From Zingiber officinale (taxonomy: Eukaryota; Streptophyta; Magnoliopsida; Zingiberales; Zingiberaceae), in assembly GCF_018446385.1 (NCBI RefSeq), contig NW_024589890.1, positions 62,001 to 126,000 of the forward strand: a DNA stretch of 64,000 nt, given 5' to 3'. Positions 37,061 through 58,791 of the stretch are shown here, in pieces. The notes under the pieces are model-generated. The model ran no database searches. It was not told the DNA's origin and saw nothing but the letters and a program-made list of their open reading frames with translations. The translations under genes were made by a program, and so were the position numbers. Numbering within the stretch: the first letter of the stretch is position 1; each line of letters opens with the position of its first letter.

Positions 37061-37482
37061 TTAGTTTGTTAATGTTCATTTCATAAAAATTATGAACGGT
37101 TAATAAAAGTATATGAACTATATTTATGATTCAGGCATTAGGGTGAGATTTAGTGAGAGCAGATCTTCTGGTCCACAAATTATGGATTAGAAGATGGTCC
37201 ATTATATGAGGACCCTTGATTTGAATGGACTCTATTTTTAAATAGGTAGGATCCATGAGTTATTACCCAATTTCAAGGATTCATTCCCTTATTTGTATTC
37301 CTATTCCTATAATCCAAACATTAACAATGAGAATCAATGATTCTCATTTCCATTCCCCACTCCTATTACCCTAAATCAAACTCCCCCTTAGTTTGTTAAT
37401 GTTCATTGCATAAAAATTATGAACGGTTAATAAAAGTATATGAACTATATTTATGATTCAGGCATTAGGGTGAGATTTAGTG
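37061..37482. repeat. 95-bp direct repeats flanking a MITE-like core
   Basis: 37061-37155 and 37388-37482 are nearly identical (offset 327). The 232 bases between look like the rest of a MITE: GGGTGAGATTTAGTG at 37141 and, inverted, GGGGGAGTTTGATTTAGGG at the right, with TTA on both sides (37138-37140 and 37388-37390). The second repeat copy includes the first 15 bases of the MITE, so a duplication after insertion is the simplest reading. Confidence 0.65.
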
Positions 37483-48342: not shown

Positions 48343-48347
48343 TGTTC

Positions 48348-49685
48348 TGTTGGTGCAACCTTAGGTCAAGGTTGACCTGGTTGACCCGACTTGAGGTGAC
48401 TTGACTCGAGTTGTATTTTGATGTTTGACTTGGGAAGATTGTCGGTGCAACCTTAGGTCAAGGTTGACCTAGTTAAGTTGCATGTTGATGTTTGACACTC
48501 GTGAGAGAATTCTATTCTTGATATGAGACAAGAATAGATGTTTGGGAGATTATTGGTGCAACCGTAGGTCAAGGTTGACCTGGTTGACCTGATTCGGGAA
48601 AAAGTCCAAGTATGGAGACTTGGCACTGGAAAAGTCCAAGCAGGGAGCTTGGCACGCGAAAAGTCCAAGTATGGAGACTTGGCACGGGAAAAGTCCAAGT
48701 ATGGAGACTTGGCTCAGGAGACTTGAGCAGAGGAAAGTTAGTGTGAGTAAAGTGGACTAAGATGTTAGAGAAAGTAAGGAAAGTCGAGGGGAAAGTCTAG
48801 ATGTAAAGAGAAAGAAAATCCATGGATGACGTTGAAAATCATGGATCAAAATCCGATACGGTGTCGACACGTTCTACGAGAGAAAAGTCGGGATATTGGG
48901 ACTGGCAGCTTCCCTGATGATTGCGTCGCGAGAAAGGTTGCCCGTGAGAGTTGGGGACGGGACGATCGTGGTCCGCAGACCGATCAGGGATTCGATCGCG
49001 ACACCTGATCGGTCTGGGGACCGATCAGGTGTCGAACAGAGGCTCTTGCGCCTAGGCTGATCGGTCTGTGGACCGATCAGAGTTCTAGCCGTTGCGACGC
49101 AACGGCTAGTTCTCTGCTGTTTCTTCTTCGCAGGTATAAAGGGGCTGAGGGCTTCTACAGGAAAACAATTCTTCTTCCTCCTTCCTGTTGCTAAGTACTG
49201 CTGTGCTTGAGTTTTGTTGAGCTCGTCCAAAGCTTCGCGTGAGCTTCCCCGACTGGAACAGCTGCTGCTGTTAGAGTTTTTGAAGCTGCTGCTTCATCCG
49301 GACTCCAGTCGACGAGAAAGCAAGATTGGTAGAGTGCTTGTGTATTCTTATTGTATTTCTTGCTTACTCTTTGTTCTTGTACTCTTTGTTTGCTGTTGCA
49401 AACATTTGTGGCGAGGTTTCTCCACCCACAAGGAGTATAGTGTATTAGCCGGTTCTCCGGGGACTCATCCACCGACGGATTGACTGGACTCGTCCACCTT
49501 ACGGACACGCCGAGGAGTAGGAGCCCTAATCTCCGAACCTCGTTACATCCTTGTGTTAAGGTTTGTTTTTCTTCTCTTTCGTTTCTTTGTATTTTCCGCT
49601 GCACTAACCTAATCGTAGGAAGAAACGCGAAAGATTGGGGTCGGCTATTCACACCCCCTCTCTAGCCGTTCAAAGGATCCTAACA
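48348..49685 (+). repeat. 5' LTR (1,338 bp)
   Basis: Its first 96 and last 717 bases match the 3' LTR almost perfectly. The 525 bases between (48444-48968) are not in the 3' LTR. They hold two more LTR-head-like starts (48440 and 48551, each with GGTGCAACC...AGGTCAAGGTTGACC) and a tandem array of about 30-base units at 48596-48715. TATA-like GCAGGTATAAAGGGG lies at about 49130-49144. Confidence 0.88.
48596..48715 (+). repeat. Four tandem ~30-bp units in the 5' LTR U3
   Basis: Four units of about 30 bases share AAAAGTCCAAG..GGAG..CTTGGC. Each contains a CCAAG/CTTGG inverted repeat. The array is absent from the 3' LTR. Tandem U3 repeats often act as enhancers in plant retrotransposons; that role is inferred here. 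Confidence 0.8.
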
Positions 49686-49745
49686 AGTGGTATCAGAGCG
49701 AGGCCGCTCTTCATCGGATCAACACCCGTGGGAGCAAAGCTAGAG

Positions 49746-51218
49746 ATGGATCAATTCGGAGAAGACATCACGATTCCACCCTTCTACAACGACAACTTCA
49801 CATATTGGAAGGTAAGGATGATGTATTTTCTTAGGACTAATATGTTGAACTGGTTTTGTGTACAAGAAGGTTTTTCTCCTCCAATGGATAAAGAAGGAGA
49901 GCCTCTAGAGAAGAACAAGTGGACGAAGGAACAAGTCCACCAATCCACGATCAACAATGAGGTAACTAAAACAATTGAATTTTCATTACCTACTAATATT
50001 TTGTGTAAGATAGGTAAATACAACAATGCCAAGGAATTGTGGGATAACTTGGCCAAGTACCATGAGGAGAGCTCCACTTCAAGCCATGAAGAGGAGCCTA
50101 GTGAGCCAAGTAGCTCACATCATGGAGGGAGCAAATTGGGAGTTGAGGGCTACTCAACATCCAAGGAAGAAGAGGAGGAGAGTTCCTCTTGCTCAAGTTC
50201 GGAGCAAGAAGAAGAAGTTTCCACCTCCGGAAGGGTTGAAGAAGAAAGCTCATCTCCATCCACAACCCTAGGTAACTCAAACACTGTGATTTCAAGCAAA
50301 TTACACATAATGTGTTTTGAGTGTAGGAAACATGGGCACTACAAGAGTAAGTGTCCAAGGAGGGTTAGGAAGACTCCACCGGCACCAAAAGTCAAGGGAG
50401 CCGGAGTCCCGACACGCAAAGGCAAGGAGCACGTGGTATGCTTCCAATGCAAGCGAAGGGGACATTATCGGAGTCAATGTCCAAGGGGGAGGCAACCTCA
50501 CAAGGACAAGGGATGCACATCGATAGGGGGAGCTAAGGCAAACCCTAAGGTACCTTTTAAGGCACACTATTGCAATTCAAATAAGAAACATGCTAGTAGT
50601 TTTATTGCTATTGCAAATAATGATAAGCATGTTAACACTAGAAATCAACACATGTGCTTAGGTGCTAAACATATTAGCCTAGGTAAGGATAACACTAGAA
50701 ATACCAACCCTAGGTTTAACGCTTCTAAAGTTAAGGAAAACCTAGGTAGAAATCCCAAGAAGACTAGACACATGCCTAGGAATATCTCAAGAGAAAATGA
50801 CAAATTAAAACTTGAGGTATTAGAAAGGGAAAATCAAGTCTTGAGGTCAAGACTTGATAATTTAGAAAAGGCTCTTAAAAACATGGAGAAGTCATCTCTA
50901 GGGTTTAAGGGTCAAAAACCAATGTCCAAGGACAAAAAGGGTTTGGGTCACAAACCTAAGTCCCAAATGGTCAAGCCCACTTATCACAATGTTCCATTCG
51001 ATTATGGAACAAAACCTAGGGCTAGGAAGACCATTACCAAGGTTACAAGGGGAGTCACCCCTATAGTTGACCTTGATGAGACCCAAATGACCAAGGCTTC
51101 AAAGCCTAAGAGGGTCATTAGGAGGGTTGCTAGGGAAGTTATCCCTAGTGAATATTTAGTGAACCCAATGAGCTCTAATAGGTATTGGGTTCCTAGGAGC
51201 ATTTTCTCTACCCCATAG
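49746..51218 (+). CDS. Gag of the LTR retrotransposon
   Basis: 490 codons from the ATG at 49746. An N-terminal capsid-like block (PPFYNDNFTYWKVRMMYFLR) typical of plant copia Gag (DUF4219/UBN2) opens the protein. A Ser/Glu-rich stretch follows, then two CCHC zinc knuckles (CFECRKHGHYKSKC near residue 189, CFQCKRRGHYRSQC near 232) and a coiled coil (about 346-378). The frame is open throughout. Part of the transposon fossil, not a host gene. Confidence 0.85.
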   Translation: MDQFGEDITIPPFYNDNFTYWKVRMMYFLRTNMLNWFCVQEGFSPPMDKEGEPLEKNKWTKEQVHQSTINNEVTKTIEFSLPTNILCKIGKYNNAKELWDNLAKYHEESSTSSHEEEPSEPSSSHHGGSKLGVEGYSTSKEEEEESSSCSSSEQEEEVSTSGRVEEESSSPSTTLGNSNTVISSKLHIMCFECRKHGHYKSKCPRRVRKTPPAPKVKGAGVPTRKGKEHVVCFQCKRRGHYRSQCPRGRQPHKDKGCTSIGGAKANPKVPFKAHYCNSNKKHASSFIAIANNDKHVNTRNQHMCLGAKHISLGKDNTRNTNPRFNASKVKENLGRNPKKTRHMPRNISRENDKLKLEVLERENQVLRSRLDNLEKALKNMEKSSLGFKGQKPMSKDKKGLGHKPKSQMVKPTYHNVPFDYGTKPRARKTITKVTRGVTPIVDLDETQMTKASKPKRVIRRVAREVIPSEYLVNPMSSNRYWVPRSIFSTP

Positions 51219-53077
51219 ATGGGTTAGAGAGTGTCAACTCCAATAAGAAGGGTAGTTAACTCAACTTTGAGGAAATTGACACTCAAGGAACATTTTCAAG
51301 GTTTTTGGAACCTTTGAAAATGAAATGGAATAATCTTTATCATTCACTCCTTGGAAGAGTAAAGTGTGCCAAAGTGAGAATATTTTAATCTTATTTGGCA
51401 CAATTTAAGAAAACCTAGAGAAATACCATAATTGGGATTTTGGTTTTCTCTTAGGGATATATGGGCAATCTAGGGTTAGATTTTAAGTTAGCTAAGGCTA
51501 AGGATACTTAGATATATTTTATTGATGTCATGCCATGACATCATATTTATTTTATTATCATTTGAAATGTCATGATATGTTAATGCTTAGGTTATCTATA
51601 TGTCATGCTCTAGTCAAGTTTCATACTTTATGCCATGACATCATGACTTTGGCACATGTTTTCCATTTATGATATCATTTATGCCATGTCATCATCTCTT
51701 GCATTAATAATCAATGAATTTGATTTAAGGATAAAAACACATTTTGATATTGAGATCAAAGTGTAGTTTAGCAAATGCATGAGAACTTAGTCTAAGATAA
51801 CCTAAACCCATATCTCACATCAAAATTGACTTGGATGTGTTTGATACACTTTAGATGTGTGTGAGATATTAGGATCATGAGTTAGGATCAAGGTACATAG
51901 GTCTTGTACCTAGATGAGCCTAATTCAAGAAATGAAGGATCATAGGGAAAGCTTGTGTACAAGTCATGTACATTTAGCCCTAAGATTATGGTCCTAAATT
52001 CAAATGGTTTTAAAAGCATTTTAAAATTGATTTGAAAAACCTTGATGAAGCTTTCCTAGTGATAGCATTCATCATTGACCGAAGTGATACAAAGTTGAGC
52101 TAAACTTGAACTATTTCAAAGTTTTTGAACTTTGTATCAAGATTGAAAAATGGAAGTTATTTTCATAGAAAACTATTTTTCCATGATAGTGTATGATATG
52201 AGGAATGTATCCTCAAAGTTTCGTAATTTTTGGAATTTTCTTGAATTTATTAGGAGTTTCTGAATTTCCGGAAGGGGAAATCAGAAATTCTGATTTCAGT
52301 GTCTGGATCGGTCCGGGGACCGATCCAGGGAAGCTCTGATCGGTCTGCGGACCGGTGGATCGGTCTGCAGACCGATCCAGTAAGATCCAGAAAGCTTGAT
52401 GCGATCTGGTGAAGGACGGATCGGTCTGGGGACCGATCCAGGGGGTTTCTGATCGGTCTGGGGACCGATCAGGGCGTGCCGAATTTCTGATTTTTCAGCT
52501 GGTGTCTGAAATTTCAGTTATGGAAGTGGTGTTTTTGGATTTCTAAAGGTTTGGAACTCTCTAAGACATTGTTGGTGCAATGGTCAAAGGGGGAGTTGAC
52601 TTTTAGGGGGAGTTTTTACTCCAAAAGACTTTTAAGGATTAGTGATATGAGATTATCACTAAGTTGATTGTTGAGTTTAGTATCAAGGAGGAAATTAAGA
52701 GTTTCAAATGAAAGGTATGGGACTTTCATTAGGAAGAAACTCTTGACCTTGATACCCTCCTTGTTCTTTTTGATGTGTGTCAAAAAGGGGAGAGTGTTCA
52801 TTGGAGAATTATCAGAAAACCCAAGTTAGGTTATCGGGTTAACCTAAGCTAGGGGAAGAATGTCTAGGAATGTTCAAGGAAGAACATTGGAATTCTTTTT
52901 GATGTGTGTCAAAAAGGGGGAGAATTATTGGAGAACCCAAGTTAGGTTATCGGGTTAACCTAAGGGGAGAATGTCCAGAGAATGTTCAAGGAAGGAACAT
53001 TGGACATTGGAAGATGATTGAAAACCTAAGTTAGGTTATCGGGTTAACCTAACTTGATTATGGTTTTGTCAAACATC
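51219..53077 (+). other. Non-coding 3' part of the LTR retrotransposon
   Basis: No pol domain. Contains five GATC-GGTC palindromes (52305-52471), three copies of a GTTAGGTTATCGGGTTAACC hairpin (about 52823, 52940, 53029), and two extra polypurine-like sites (52782-52794, 52911-52923). Confidence 0.7.
52305..52471. repeat. Cluster of five 20-bp GATC-GGTC palindromes
   Basis: Five near-copies of GATCGGTCTGGGGACCGATC lie within 167 bases. Three more sit in each LTR (48969-49080 region and 53315-53430 region). Loop bases vary (GG, CA, CG, TG) while the arms are kept. Confidence 0.85.
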
Positions 53078-53091
53078 AAAAAGGGGGAGAT

Positions 53092-54035
53092 TGTTGGTGC
53101 AACCTTAGGTCAAGGTTGACCTGGTTGACCCGACTTGAGGTGACTTGACTCGAGTTGTATTTTGATGTTTGACTTGGGAAGATTGTCCTACAACTGAAAT
53201 TAAATTAGTAAAAAAAAGAGAAAGAGAGAGTCTGAAAGTCAAAAGGAAAGTAGATGAAGTCAATAAAATAAGTCAGTCGGAACCAGAGACTTAGCGATCG
53301 AGACCCTCGAGGATTGATCGGTCCGCAGACCGATCAGGGATTCGATCGCGACACCTGATCGGTCTGGGGACCGATCAGGTGTCGAACAGAGGCTCTTGCG
53401 CCTAGGCTGATCGGTCTGTGGACCGATCAGAGTTCTAGCCGTTGCGACGCAACGGCTAGTTCTCTGCTGTTTCTTCTTCGCAGGTATAAAGGGGCTGAGG
53501 GCTTCTACAGGAAAACAATTCTTCTTCCTCCTTCCTGTTGCTAAGTACTGCTGTGCTTGAGTTTTGTTGAGCTCGTCCAAAGCTTCGCGTGAGCTTCCCC
53601 GACTGGAACAGCTGCTGTTGTTAGAGTTTTTGAAGCTGCTGCTTCATCCGGACTCCAGTCGACGAGAAAGCAAGATTGGTAGAGTGCTTGTGTATTCTTA
53701 TTGTATTTCTTGCTTACTCTTTGTTCTTGTACTCTTTGTTTGCTGTTGCAAACATTTGTGGCGAGGTTTCTCCACCCACAAGGAGTATAGTGTATTAGCC
53801 GGTTCTCCGGGGACTCATCCACCGACGGATTGACTGGACTCGTCCACCTTACGGACACGCCGAGGAGTAGGAGCCCTAATCTCCGAACCTCGTTACATCC
53901 TTGTGTTAAGGTTTGTTTTTCTTCTCTTTCGTTTCTTTGTATTTTCCGCTGCACTAACCTAATCGTAGGAAGAAACGCGAAAGATTGGGGTCGGCTATTC
54001 ACACCCCCTCTCTAGCCGTTCAAAGGATCCTAACA
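53092..54035 (+). repeat. 3' LTR (944 bp)
   Basis: Shares 53092-53187 and 53319-54035 with the 5' LTR. Its middle (53188-53318) is a different, purine-rich 131-base segment. It ends CCTAACA and meets the target duplication TGTTC. Confidence 0.88.
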
Positions 54036-54040
54036 TGTTC

Positions 54041-54215: not shown

Positions 54216-57200
54216 TCACTGAGCTGTTCTTCTTACCATGGATATGCCAGATGGGTCCGCACCCATCTCTTCGAAAACAACCAGAAGATTTCCAGTTGGC
54301 TTTAGCCAGGAGCGAGGAACATGATACCTGAGATTAGTTATCACACAACTGTTAATTATCTGCTTTAGCATAATCATTGGAAAACACTCCGTACCATTTT
54401 TGAGAAGAATCCCCACAATTAGTTTGGCATTTTTTCTCATTGTACGTTCCACGGTAATCACAATCACCACAAGAACCGGAAGCTTTGTAGGCAGGCCAAT
54501 AACGACCGATACTTTGCCCATTTATCCATATTTGACCTTTACCCATGCTACTCATATCTAAAGCCAATGGGTCATTCCCTGCTGGAGCATTGAAGTAAGC
54601 CTGGGAGATCAAAATGATTGAGTGAGACGATGATCATTAGAAGGGAGCAAACGATAGGACATATCAAACTAAAAGGAAAATAAAGAAACAGCACTTCGCG
54701 AGGATGCCTGCAGCTGTGCTATGCAATACAAACCTTGTGCCAAGTCATGGGCATTCTTGTGGATGCACCTCCCCACTCAACTGAAGAAGCTCCATTAAGT
54801 GTGTGAAGATTTAAATGTTCACCCTGTAGGCCAACCTGCACGACTCATCAAGGTTACAACTCATAATACTTGTGGGACATAAAATCAAAAAGAATATAAC
54901 ACACTGGGCAAGTTGTGCACATTCATAGACCTGGTAAGTCCATGTTTGTGATCCAAGGTCTCGTTTTCCTTCGTTTAGTCCTTCTAGAGTTACCGGACCA
55001 AGAACACCAGCATTCCATGTCTCAAAGTGGTTACCCACATTCTGAAACAAATAATAAAGGAACAAAGAATAACATTTATTCTTAGTTTTGAGGCATATAT
55101 TTTGCTGTATAATAAACCAGTTTTTTTTTTTTTCAAAATACAGGACAATAAGTCATGTTAATCCTATCAAGAAAATATATGTTTATCACAAGTTGTGTTA
55201 ATGCCAACTTTTTAAATTGGCTACATGGATCTTATCACTCTAATGGGTTCTATGAACTCACTTTTTATCGGCTTAAATCTACTTCCTATAACTCTAACCT
55301 ATTCAACAACATACCTAGCTAGAGAATTTTCTACTCATCTTTGAAGATGTACCTATGATCTTAACTTCCTTTTTTTCTAATTTCATCATCTATTAAAGCT
55401 ACATTTTCTCTTCTCGAGTAACTCATCGTTCACCCAACTAGGAAAGGTACTCACTGGCAGACCAACAGCTACACTTAAAATGGAAATCTTGTTCCTTCCT
55501 GCCCACAACTTTACATTTCCTGTATAAGTCAGCTTTGGACTGTCTAGTCCACCATAGACGATGCCTGCCAAAAAGTTGAAAGAGTTGTTTGAACCATACT
55601 GTAAATGATAAATTCTTGCAGAAGAAATTGTGGTGCTTGAACTAAAGTCACTCACCGATTCTTTCTCCATTGACGAAAACATGCATAGCATGACCAGCTG
55701 ACATCACGGTGAGGTAAGGGTTCCGGCCATTCTTCAAAAATTGCTCATTTGGGCTAATGTCAACACTGAGAAGAGAATTTTGTATTCAACTGAACATAAG
55801 CTGCAAATTAAGGTCCCAAAATATGTTCATGGCGATCTTCTACTCACGTAATAGTGTACCACATGTAGTCAGACTTGTCCCGTGTCATGCTTAGCTGCTC
55901 AACTAGTCCATTTTTTGTGAACGATTCATCATCCAATGAGTTGGTCTGCTCACTAAAGGACTTCCAAGAAAACTTGCCGACCCATGCCATTTTGTACTGA
56001 ATTGTCGGAGCTACTACCTGATCATAAATTGTCACACCATTTTCAAGAATGTTGAAACTTCGCACCAGTAGTATACAAGTTGGTTCTAAAGATAAATTTG
56101 AAAAAAAAAATCATAAAATAGATGAGTAGAACTTTGGACTGATAGTCTGTTTATTAAACTACTAAATTAATCCAAGCATAAAAACAATTATCATAAAAAA
56201 TACTTCTAACCCTTGCGGTATTGAATACGGCAGTTTTGCAATCAGGAAGTATACTGATGGACCAAGCTGGAAGGTCATAGCTCACTCCATTGAAAGTAAC
56301 CCTTGCAGATGATCTTGGGTTATAATTAGAAAGGAATGCTGCACAAGCACCTGCTTTTGATCTGTAAACGTGTGCCTAAAAGGAATTATGTGTAATTAGT
56401 TCAATTATTCACATGATTTGTTGCTATCCTACAGCCTACACAAACTTGTGAGATGAACCTGCTCATAATTTCCAAGTTTTGAAATTGTTGGATCTGCAGA
56501 TATGAGGGCTGGCTCAGACATTTTAATTGCTTTATGAAGATCTCTCAAATGACCCCATTTTGGTTGCCTCAAGAGACCTGAGTATAGTGACCGTCATTAG
56601 GCGAAGGAATTTCTAATTTGGCATTCGATGTATATATGTTACTGATGATTGATCGCATTATACAGCTACTTTAATACTTCAAAGAACAAAATGGCAGTGA
56701 AAAACCAGACAAAGAGGGCTGATAGGTTAAGTTGAGCTCTAATTCTTCACCCATACCATATTCATCTATCGGAGCATCATAGTCATAGCTTGTTGATATG
56801 AATGGGCCACCAGCTGTCCGACCAAAGTTTGTCCCTCCATGATACTAGATTCAACAGAAAAGAAAATAAATTCTTTTCTTTCGATATCACATAAAGGATT
56901 AACAATTAGTGAAACTGAATTGAACATTCAACTTCTTACCATGTAGTAATTAACAAAGGATCCACCTTTCTGTATAAACCTTGCAACAGCAAAAGCCAAA
57001 TCCTCAACTGGCCGGTGAGGAACTGGACCTCCAAAAGCGGTGAACCTGATATATATTATGAATGTGATGAATAAGTGCACTATATATCAAGAAAATATTA
57101 GTTGGCTGGTTCATTCTGAAGCAAAAGAAAAAAGTATTAATAGTTCAAGTGAAAATTACCAGCCAGTCCAAGCTTCAGTCCACATACTAGGTTTATAAGG

Positions 57201-58791
57201 TTTGTTTGGAGAGAAATAATCACAGTAGAACCCATTGCAAGTATTAATCTGAAAAGAAATTCCAATATCACTATTACATGATAATATATTTTTCTTAAAA
57301 GATATTTAATTATTTGAACTTCTACAAATAGATTTTTGTGATAATCATTGACCATGTGAAAAAAAGCATGCAAAATAAAGCAAAGCAATTAGTTGAAATA
57401 ATCCAGTGTAACAAATCAAGGGAACTCACAAGGCACTGGCATTGGGATTTCAATTTTGATACAAGAACTTCAAAATTTATGCATTGTATATCTATATACA
57501 TTCATTGCAATGATAATTCGAGTGGGCATAAAAGAAGTATTCTTTTGAACTTACTACTGGATCAGGTGCATCATCTTGTTTACACATGACCCATGGCACA
57601 CCGGTGTTAAGGCCAACTGCCATTTGAGCTGCCCACGTTGCATAATTCTTGGCGACAGAGCCACCATAGTAGTCCTCCAACGGACCATATTCATTTTCAA
57701 TCTGTTCAATTTAAGCACACAACTCAGAAGAACTAGAGAATTACTTGGGTGAAGCTATAGACTTAGTTTCCAATTCATTAGGGAGAAAAAAGAGAGTAAA
57801 TTATACCTGTGAGAGGATTATCGGGCCACCTTGAGACTGATATAATCCTTCAGACTTCATCATGGAGACAATTTTTTCAGTGAAACTCTCCATCGCAGCC
57901 TTTTACATGAACAAAGGAATGATTAGGTCAAGAGAGTAACTTGAGAGAAATAAAACAAGAAGAAGAATGTGTTAAATCTTACTTTGAAAGGTCCATTGTT
58001 AGTCCGGAAGCTGATACCAGGAACATACTTTAGCCAGATAGGAAATCCCCTGTTCCACAACAGAAGATGAACAAGTAAATATAATCAAAATGCGAAGTTG
58101 AGAAATTGATTTCACTTCTTTTGAAGGAACCTAGAAAAAAAAAATCCTTAGTTGACAGTAATCAGAAGCTTACCCAAAGTTCCATTCTGCACAAACATAA
58201 GGACCTATCCGAAGATGAACGTAGAGACCAGCCTGCTTCACCAGCTTAATAAAGCGAACCAGATCATAATTCCCTCCAAAATAATACTGCCAAAACCAAG
58301 GAAATCACCCAAAAAACTTTCTTAAAAATCACCAAAAAGTTACGAAAATGATAAAAGGAAGATTTTGAGATGGAATAACCAGCATACCTGGCCAGGGGAA
58401 GGCTCATGGCCGTTCCAGAACACATAGGTCTGGATGACATCCAAGCCGCCGTCTTTGGCCTTCTGTATGAGATCCGGCCACATCTGGAGACAAGGGACAA
58501 GTAAAAATAGGAACTTTACATAGCAAAACAAGTCCGAGTACCACAAAGGAGCCACATTTCACGCAGGAGCGGATTCCTCACCTCCGGAGTGCTGCGGGGG
58601 TAATGAATGGAACCAGAGATGAGAATCCTCCGCTGACCATTGATGATGAGGGCCTTGCGGTCGTAGGAAACGGAGGCGCCGACCGGAGCGAGCAGAGACG
58701 GCGAAAAAAACAGTATCGCTGCAGCCACCGCCAGTAGCAGAAGATCGGAAAGCCTCCGGCGGCGCCCAAGCGCCACAGGCTCGGCGTTCAT
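54216..58791 (-). CDS. BGAL: Beta-galactosidase, GH35, secreted
   Basis: Eighteen exons, in coding order: 58582-58791, 58388-58483, 58174-58286, 57983-58049, 57807-57899, 57555-57701, 57160-57248, 56940-57045, 56757-56844, 56459-56577, 56211-56375, 55848-56017, 55656-55765, 55455-55564, 54931-55041, 54734-54835, 54395-54600, 54216-54327; 2,214 nt, 737 residues. A hydrophobic leader (about 15-39) is followed by the GH35 domain. [14 protein letters not shown] spans exons 5-6 with acid/base Glu197, and MWTEAWTGW carries the likely nucleophile Glu267. The galactose-binding-like C-terminal part ([20 protein letters not shown]) follows. The protein ends [15 protein letters not shown] and has no SUEL lectin domain, like the BGAL2/BGAL4 group. 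Such enzymes trim galactan and other beta-galactosides in the cell wall. Confidence 0.95.

Follow-up and report, generated by a model that had tools for sequence, protein, structure and literature searches.

How can a single retrotransposon insertion carry two long terminal repeats (LTRs) that are almost identical at both ends and unrelated in between? The question is raised by an element in a stretch of 64,000 nucleotides from Zingiber officinale (NCBI RefSeq assembly GCF_018446385.1, contig NW_024589890.1, positions 62,001 to 126,000 of the forward strand), which is called the window here and in whose own numbering all positions are given. The element spans 48348-54035 on the plus strand, is about 5.7 kb long and complete, and shows the long terminal direct repeats, the TG...CA termini on both LTRs and the target-site duplication of an LTR retrotransposon; the duplication is a perfect 5-bp TGTTC, with its left copy at 48343-48347 and its right copy at 54036-54040. 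In the standard pathway of reverse transcription, both copies of the unique 3' region (U3) derive from one U3. The 5' LTR of this element (48348-49685) measures 1338 bp and the 3' LTR (53092-54035) 944 bp. A first-pass annotation made from the letters of the window alone had claimed that unlike U3 middles lie between matching LTR ends, and the comparison of the two LTRs confirms this.

The LTRs share a head of 96 bp (48348-48443 and 53092-53187), which is the same at 96/96 positions and stops just past an inverted-repeat arm, and a tail of 716 bp (48970-49685 and 53320-54035), which is identical at 715/716 positions, the sole difference being a C/T change 418 bases before the LTR end. Head and tail together thus agree at 811 of the 812 shared bases. 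The tail consists of palindromic repeat units, a TATA box (TATAAA at 49135-49140, with its 3' LTR copy at 53485), then the repeat region (R) and the unique 5' region (U5), the borders of which are inferred, and a C-rich end. Between head and tail, the 5' LTR holds a long U3 middle of 526 bp (48444-48969), made up of two diverged copies of the LTR start followed by a 30-bp tandem array, and the 3' LTR holds a short one of 132 bp (53188-53319), which at its right edge supplies the rest of a palindromic repeat unit (53315-53336). The first-pass lengths need small corrections: the head of 96 stands, the tail had been given as 717 by counting one mismatched junction base, and the middles, rightly called unrelated, had been given as 525 and 131. 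When the middles were compared by local alignment under two scoring schemes, with 500 dinucleotide shuffles as the control, no similarity above chance was found, the best score being equalled by 47/500 shuffles under one scheme and 223/500 under the other, and alignment in the reverse-complement orientation was no better. An edge-only comparison of 60 bases with 1000 letter shuffles per side detected no residual similarity either (score equalled by 748/1000 shuffles on the left and 186/1000 on the right). The short middle was also considered as a diverged form of the long one and rejected as such: a long gapped alignment exists, but those same 223 shuffles score equally high. No further copy of the short middle was found in the window, where the next best match covers 15 bases (E 0.006).

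What sets the two LTRs apart is situated ahead of the TATA box, in the part of an LTR that usually houses regulatory sites. The attachment end belongs to the shared head, as does the right arm of an inverted repeat that borders the polypurine tract (PPT); the shared tail carries the TATA box, the opposite LTR end and the presumed R and U5. Because both LTR ends, the inverted-repeat arm and the TATA box are shared, RNAs with different middles could use the same machinery.

The perfect target duplication, as the first-pass annotation had reported it, fits one single integration. It is unlikely to have arisen by chance, because the probability of a 5-mer match between two random sites of the window is 0.0016. 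This figure upholds the earlier argument that the duplication speaks against simple recombination of two insertions. Unequal recombination between two separate family insertions is able to join two unlike LTRs around one interior, but it leaves differing flanking duplications where here they match, and we regard it as scarcely credible. A second copy of the element was not found in the window by BLAST at E 0.001. The single change among the 812 shared bases corresponds to a divergence age of about 47,000-88,000 years (95% limits about 1,200-490,000), as calculated with two assumed substitution rates. Since 811/812 shared bases are identical, the exchange and the insertion would be close in time.

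Each U3 middle has contents of its own that bear on how it arose. In the long type, a second copy of the LTR-start module (48440-48550) matches the first at 34/42 core bases and is preceded by a PPT-like GGGAAG and AT/TG, and a third copy (48551-48592) matches at 39/42 core bases and is preceded by GGGAGAT; the tandem array that follows comprises four copies (48595-48713). These LTR-start repeats depart from the present head at 8/42 and 3/42 bases, a much greater divergence than that between the ends of the two LTRs, and therefore the long U3 type would predate the insertion rather than reflect slippage in the last round. The LTR start is thus present three times at 48348-48592 of the 5' LTR, with a PPT-like run ahead of each later copy, and it looks as if the LTRs grew by alternative plus-strand priming. 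In the short type, the right edge completes an exact palindromic unit, TGATCGGTCCGCAGACCGATCA, which is interrupted in the 5' LTR. Random filler would hardly be the source of the completed unit, because TGATCG occurs 7 times on the plus strand of the 58,312 bases outside the element. From these features inside one element, both middles are best read as pre-existing U3 types of the family and not as damage. Breaks in plant DNA are often repaired by deletion with filler, and local damage could have taken the form of a 3' LTR that lost its U3 middle and gained about 130 bases of filler, or of a 5' LTR expanded by slippage; the short middle, with no other copy in the window, would suit the former. 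We nevertheless hold local damage to be very unlikely: an intact, family-specific palindromic unit completed at the junction is not to be expected of random filler, the long-middle repeats are too diverged to be new, and no similarity was detected between the middles, so neither seems to be derived from the other by deletion or slippage.

The explanation that we favour, tentatively and with somewhat less than even confidence, is co-packaging of two RNAs from the same family, with strong-stop DNA joined across molecules at the second strand transfer. One long-U3 and one short-U3 RNA of the family would have been packaged in one particle, with the polymerase presumably supplied by an autonomous relative. 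Minus-strand DNA would be made on each RNA; the PPT-primed plus-strand strong-stop DNA of the long-U3 molecule would then be joined, via the primer-binding site (PBS) sequence, to the short-U3 minus strand, and completion of both strands would give a linear DNA with a long-U3 5' LTR and a short-U3 3' LTR. A single integration of this mixed linear DNA, with a normal 5-bp duplication, would leave an insertion whose LTRs were already unlike when it was made. Unlike LTRs can arise via intermolecular second strand transfer or via a switch in plus-strand strong-stop synthesis, and a double switch during that synthesis would be an alternative way to the same product in one round. A minus-strand template switch was rejected as the cause; it would give like LTRs, as in the Tnt1 chimera described below. 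The first-pass annotation had left conversion, template switching between co-packaged RNAs and artefact as causes, which is the right list, although its second item is too broad and must be narrowed because a minus-strand switch yields two identical chimeric LTRs. The next round of reverse transcription would re-equalise the LTRs, and the copy would therefore be a first-generation product.

Several known systems resemble parts of this pathway. In Tnt1, the U3 is modular and U3 subfamilies exist (PMC1838419, in part), and with mini-Tnt1, template switching between RNAs has been observed, with a U3 chimera in 1/4 sequenced insertions (PMC2923131, in part). That chimera is like the present element in that a retrotransposon with a modular U3 and two RNA templates are involved; its two LTRs, however, are identical, as a minus-strand switch predicts, whereas here they differ (PMC2923131, in part). 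For human immunodeficiency virus 1 (HIV-1) recombinants, intermolecular second strand transfer has been inferred, and the product in that model is a provirus with two unlike LTRs, a DNA copy comparable to ours, although the virus is a retrovirus and the mixed copy is a model step inferred from later generations (PMC5651808, in part). The same source states, within the part drawn on here, that second strand transfer in cell culture is generally intramolecular (PMC5651808). In the template-switching complexes of the Triticeae, the flanking duplication likewise separates reverse-transcription products from DNA recombination; unlike this element, those complexes have three LTRs and two internal regions, and their outer LTRs are highly similar (PMC1950507). 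Recombination between family members has been reported for Onsen, with one LTR event falling within U3 (PMC5668417, in part). A precedent in LTR structure is crapaud of Podospora, in which the 5' LTR is unlike the 3' LTR in 7/150 full copies and in which, as here, variation lies mostly in U3 before the TATA box; crapaud differs in being fungal and in carrying gag and pol (PMC10787394, in part). Template switching between co-packaged RNAs is also discussed by the crapaud authors, as a source of subfamilies (PMC10787394, in part).

Several points weigh against a transfer between two RNAs. Both parents are inferred from the features of this one copy. Parents that are alike over 811/812 end bases but not in the middle presuppose that U3 had been exchanged in the family before; failing that, two switches would have had to fall precisely at the homology edges. 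No leftover similarity extends past the identical blocks (748 and 186 of the 1000 shuffles, as above), and edges of this kind fit an assembly join equally well. For the same pattern, moreover, the crapaud authors expect gene conversion or ectopic recombination, which they apply to their 7/150 disparate full copies (PMC10787394, in part).

Ectopic gene conversion after insertion would begin when the U3 of one LTR broke and was repaired from a family member with a different U3, so that the middle was exchanged while the target duplication stayed intact. Non-allelic conversion among LTRs is known, the tract would be flanked by the homologous head and tail, and the perfect duplication is explained just as well as by transfer between RNAs. 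Against this stand the little time that the single change in 812 shared bases allows, at the age and limits given above, and the need for a donor whose flanks are identical, or else for a tract that stops precisely where homology stops; in plants, moreover, conversion between the LTRs of different elements is reportedly much rarer than within an element (PMC7251063, in part). On balance we consider conversion unlikely, though it keeps appreciable weight.

An error of assembly or polishing would mean that the true LTRs are alike and that the U3 of another family member was substituted in one of them at a bubble within identical flanks. The breakpoints fall exactly at the edges of the sequence shared by the LTRs, as a graph assembler would make them. 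The window, on the other hand, is without any undetermined base (N), and a 5.7-kb element with near-identical 716-bp tails was closed gaplessly; because these tails were closed without a gap, long reads or clones appear to underlie the sequence. An artefact of this kind strikes us as improbable.

The element itself is read as a non-autonomous, gag-only derivative of the Sirevirus lineage within Ty1/copia that has the structure of a TR-GAG element, the lineage being read from non-coding marks. Five of the non-coding marks published for Sireviruses (PMC2829016, in part) are found here. The LTR/PBS junction, CA/AGTGG followed by TATCAGAGC (AGTGG and TATCAGAGC together at 49686-49699), matches the Sirevirus form CA / A(T or G)TGG TATCAGAGC (PMC2829016, in part). 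The terminal PPT octamer AGGGGGAG (53082-53089) is followed by an AT/TG attachment site, and three upstream octamers of the same sequence lie at 52588-52595, 52605-52612 and 52915-52922, so that the linker holds the Sirevirus cluster of about four PPTs, with 4 exact octamers against 0.02 expected by composition in 52501-53092. The terminal PPT is bordered by an inverted repeat with perfect arms of 14 nt, the left at 53068-53081 and the right at 53160-53173, starting at LTR base 69 inside the shared head. Palindromic units of the form CGGTC-n4-GACCG occur as 10 exact copies in the element (2 in the 5' LTR, 3 in the 3' LTR and 5 in the linker) and 0 times in the rest of the window, and the TATA box follows such units, which places the Sirevirus CGG-CCG mark upstream of it.

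In the PPT octamer, the multiple PPTs, the AT/TG site, the bordering inverted repeat, the CGG-CCG palindromes upstream of the TATA box and the AGTGG-TATCAGAGC junction, the element therefore resembles Sireviruses, although these average 10.55 kb against 5.7 kb here, where no pol was detected, and their inverted-repeat partner lies on average about 28 bases into the LTR, with an average arm of 28 bp, against 69 and 14 here (PMC2829016, in part). It further differs in having two additional PPT octamers inside gag, contrary to the rarity reported outside the linker (PMC2829016, in part). By eye, a run rich in C is seen about 23 bases before the LTR end and may correspond to the Sirevirus integrase signal at about 21 bases; this signal and the gag coiled coil are no more than suggestive.

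The gag gene (49746-51218, plus strand) encodes 490 amino acids, in which the zinc-knuckle family scores above the Pfam cutoff (22 vs 20.8 bits) in 2 stretches; matches to DUF4219 (E 0.026), copia gag (E 0.054) and coiled-coil-like bZIP (E 0.22) are below the cutoff. The linker (51219-53091) carries five palindromic repeat units (52305-52471) and the four exact PPT octamers. Between gag and the 3' LTR, 50 open reading frames (ORFs) of at least 25 residues are listed, and no pol family match was found in the 9 linker ORFs scanned (42-58 residues). The earlier description of the element as gag-only, with one zinc-knuckle ORF, is in line with this. LTRs, PBS, PPT and a gag ORF, with no pol in the 9 scanned linker ORFs, are the features of TR-GAG elements, which are said to be the subject of Chaparro et al. 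2015. The likeness to TR-GAG elements, which also have LTRs and a gag domain but lack pol, is one of description and not of sequence (PMC10025401, in part).

The five linker palindromic units at 52305-52471 are similar to the additional boxes that have been described ahead of the envelope gene of some Sireviruses; none of the same 9 linker ORFs gave an envelope-like match. At 52764-53052, upstream of the terminal PPT, direct repeats that are 73% alike over about 200 aligned columns contain PPT-like runs and inverted-repeat words. In searches of collections of non-plant sequence, which are uninformative on absence, a gag query against viral contigs returned four pattern matches with no relative confirmed, and one LTR pattern against prokaryote genome contigs and one against viral contigs returned 0 matches.

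With the Sirevirus-type repeats in view, a more specific course of events may be outlined, which we regard as doubtful: a U3 cassette exchange seen in a first-generation copy. The whole block upstream of the promoter would have been swapped in one LTR only, between a PPT/attachment-like repeat on the left (GGGAAGATTGTC) and the palindromic unit on the right; Sirevirus-type repeats would be preferred switch points in plus-strand synthesis, and mixed-LTR copies would be a step of regulatory change.

The element lies antisense to a beta-galactosidase gene on the minus strand (54216-57710), about 180 bp past the apparent stop codon, and read-through from the 3' LTR would enter the 3' end of that gene. 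The gene has GH35 and galactose-binding domains: among 8 flanking ORFs scanned, 3 gave matches above the cutoff, two to GH35 and one to the galactose-binding domain, and in another the latter domain scored below it. Its final coding stretch corresponds to residues 671-706 of a solved beta-galactosidase of 718 residues, which we take to be the tomato enzyme, and further ORFs to about 58558 appear to be of the same kind. Together with the lineage of the element, this gene points to a plant as host. Elsewhere in the window, a 198-base direct repeat at 1802-2242, 97% alike, has a spacing of 243 bases, and a 95-base direct repeat at 37061-37482, 99% alike, has starts 327 bases apart. A plus-strand ORF of 289 codons at 45935-46804 matches no Pfam family above the cutoff and appears to us to resemble the C-terminal part of a plant CHUP1-like protein.

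The first-pass interpretation as a whole is partly supported; it lacked the Sirevirus lineage, the LTR-start repeats of the long U3 and the earlier reports of unlike LTRs. LTR swapping in soybean has reportedly been described by Du et al. 2010. A mix-up between two RNAs is of a rare but already reported kind, and the present element is a good new example rather than a new kind, because the U3 modularity of Tnt1 and the unlike-LTR elements of crapaud are already known. In the present case the unlike LTRs occur in a plant Sirevirus derivative that is young enough to be tested, and we make no claim that plant cases have gone unreported. The weight of the finding is lowered by the earlier report of unlike LTR pairs in a U3-variable family in fungi. 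If the structure is real, reverse transcription would have been caught producing a pair of unlike LTRs at one dated integration, a mixed-LTR step that is usually inferred from descendants, since the next cycle erases it. Dating by LTR divergence and programs that find LTR pairs could misjudge or miss such mixed-LTR copies. If real, the element would also help to explain how the regulatory part of U3 is replaced in plant copia families while the remainder is kept.

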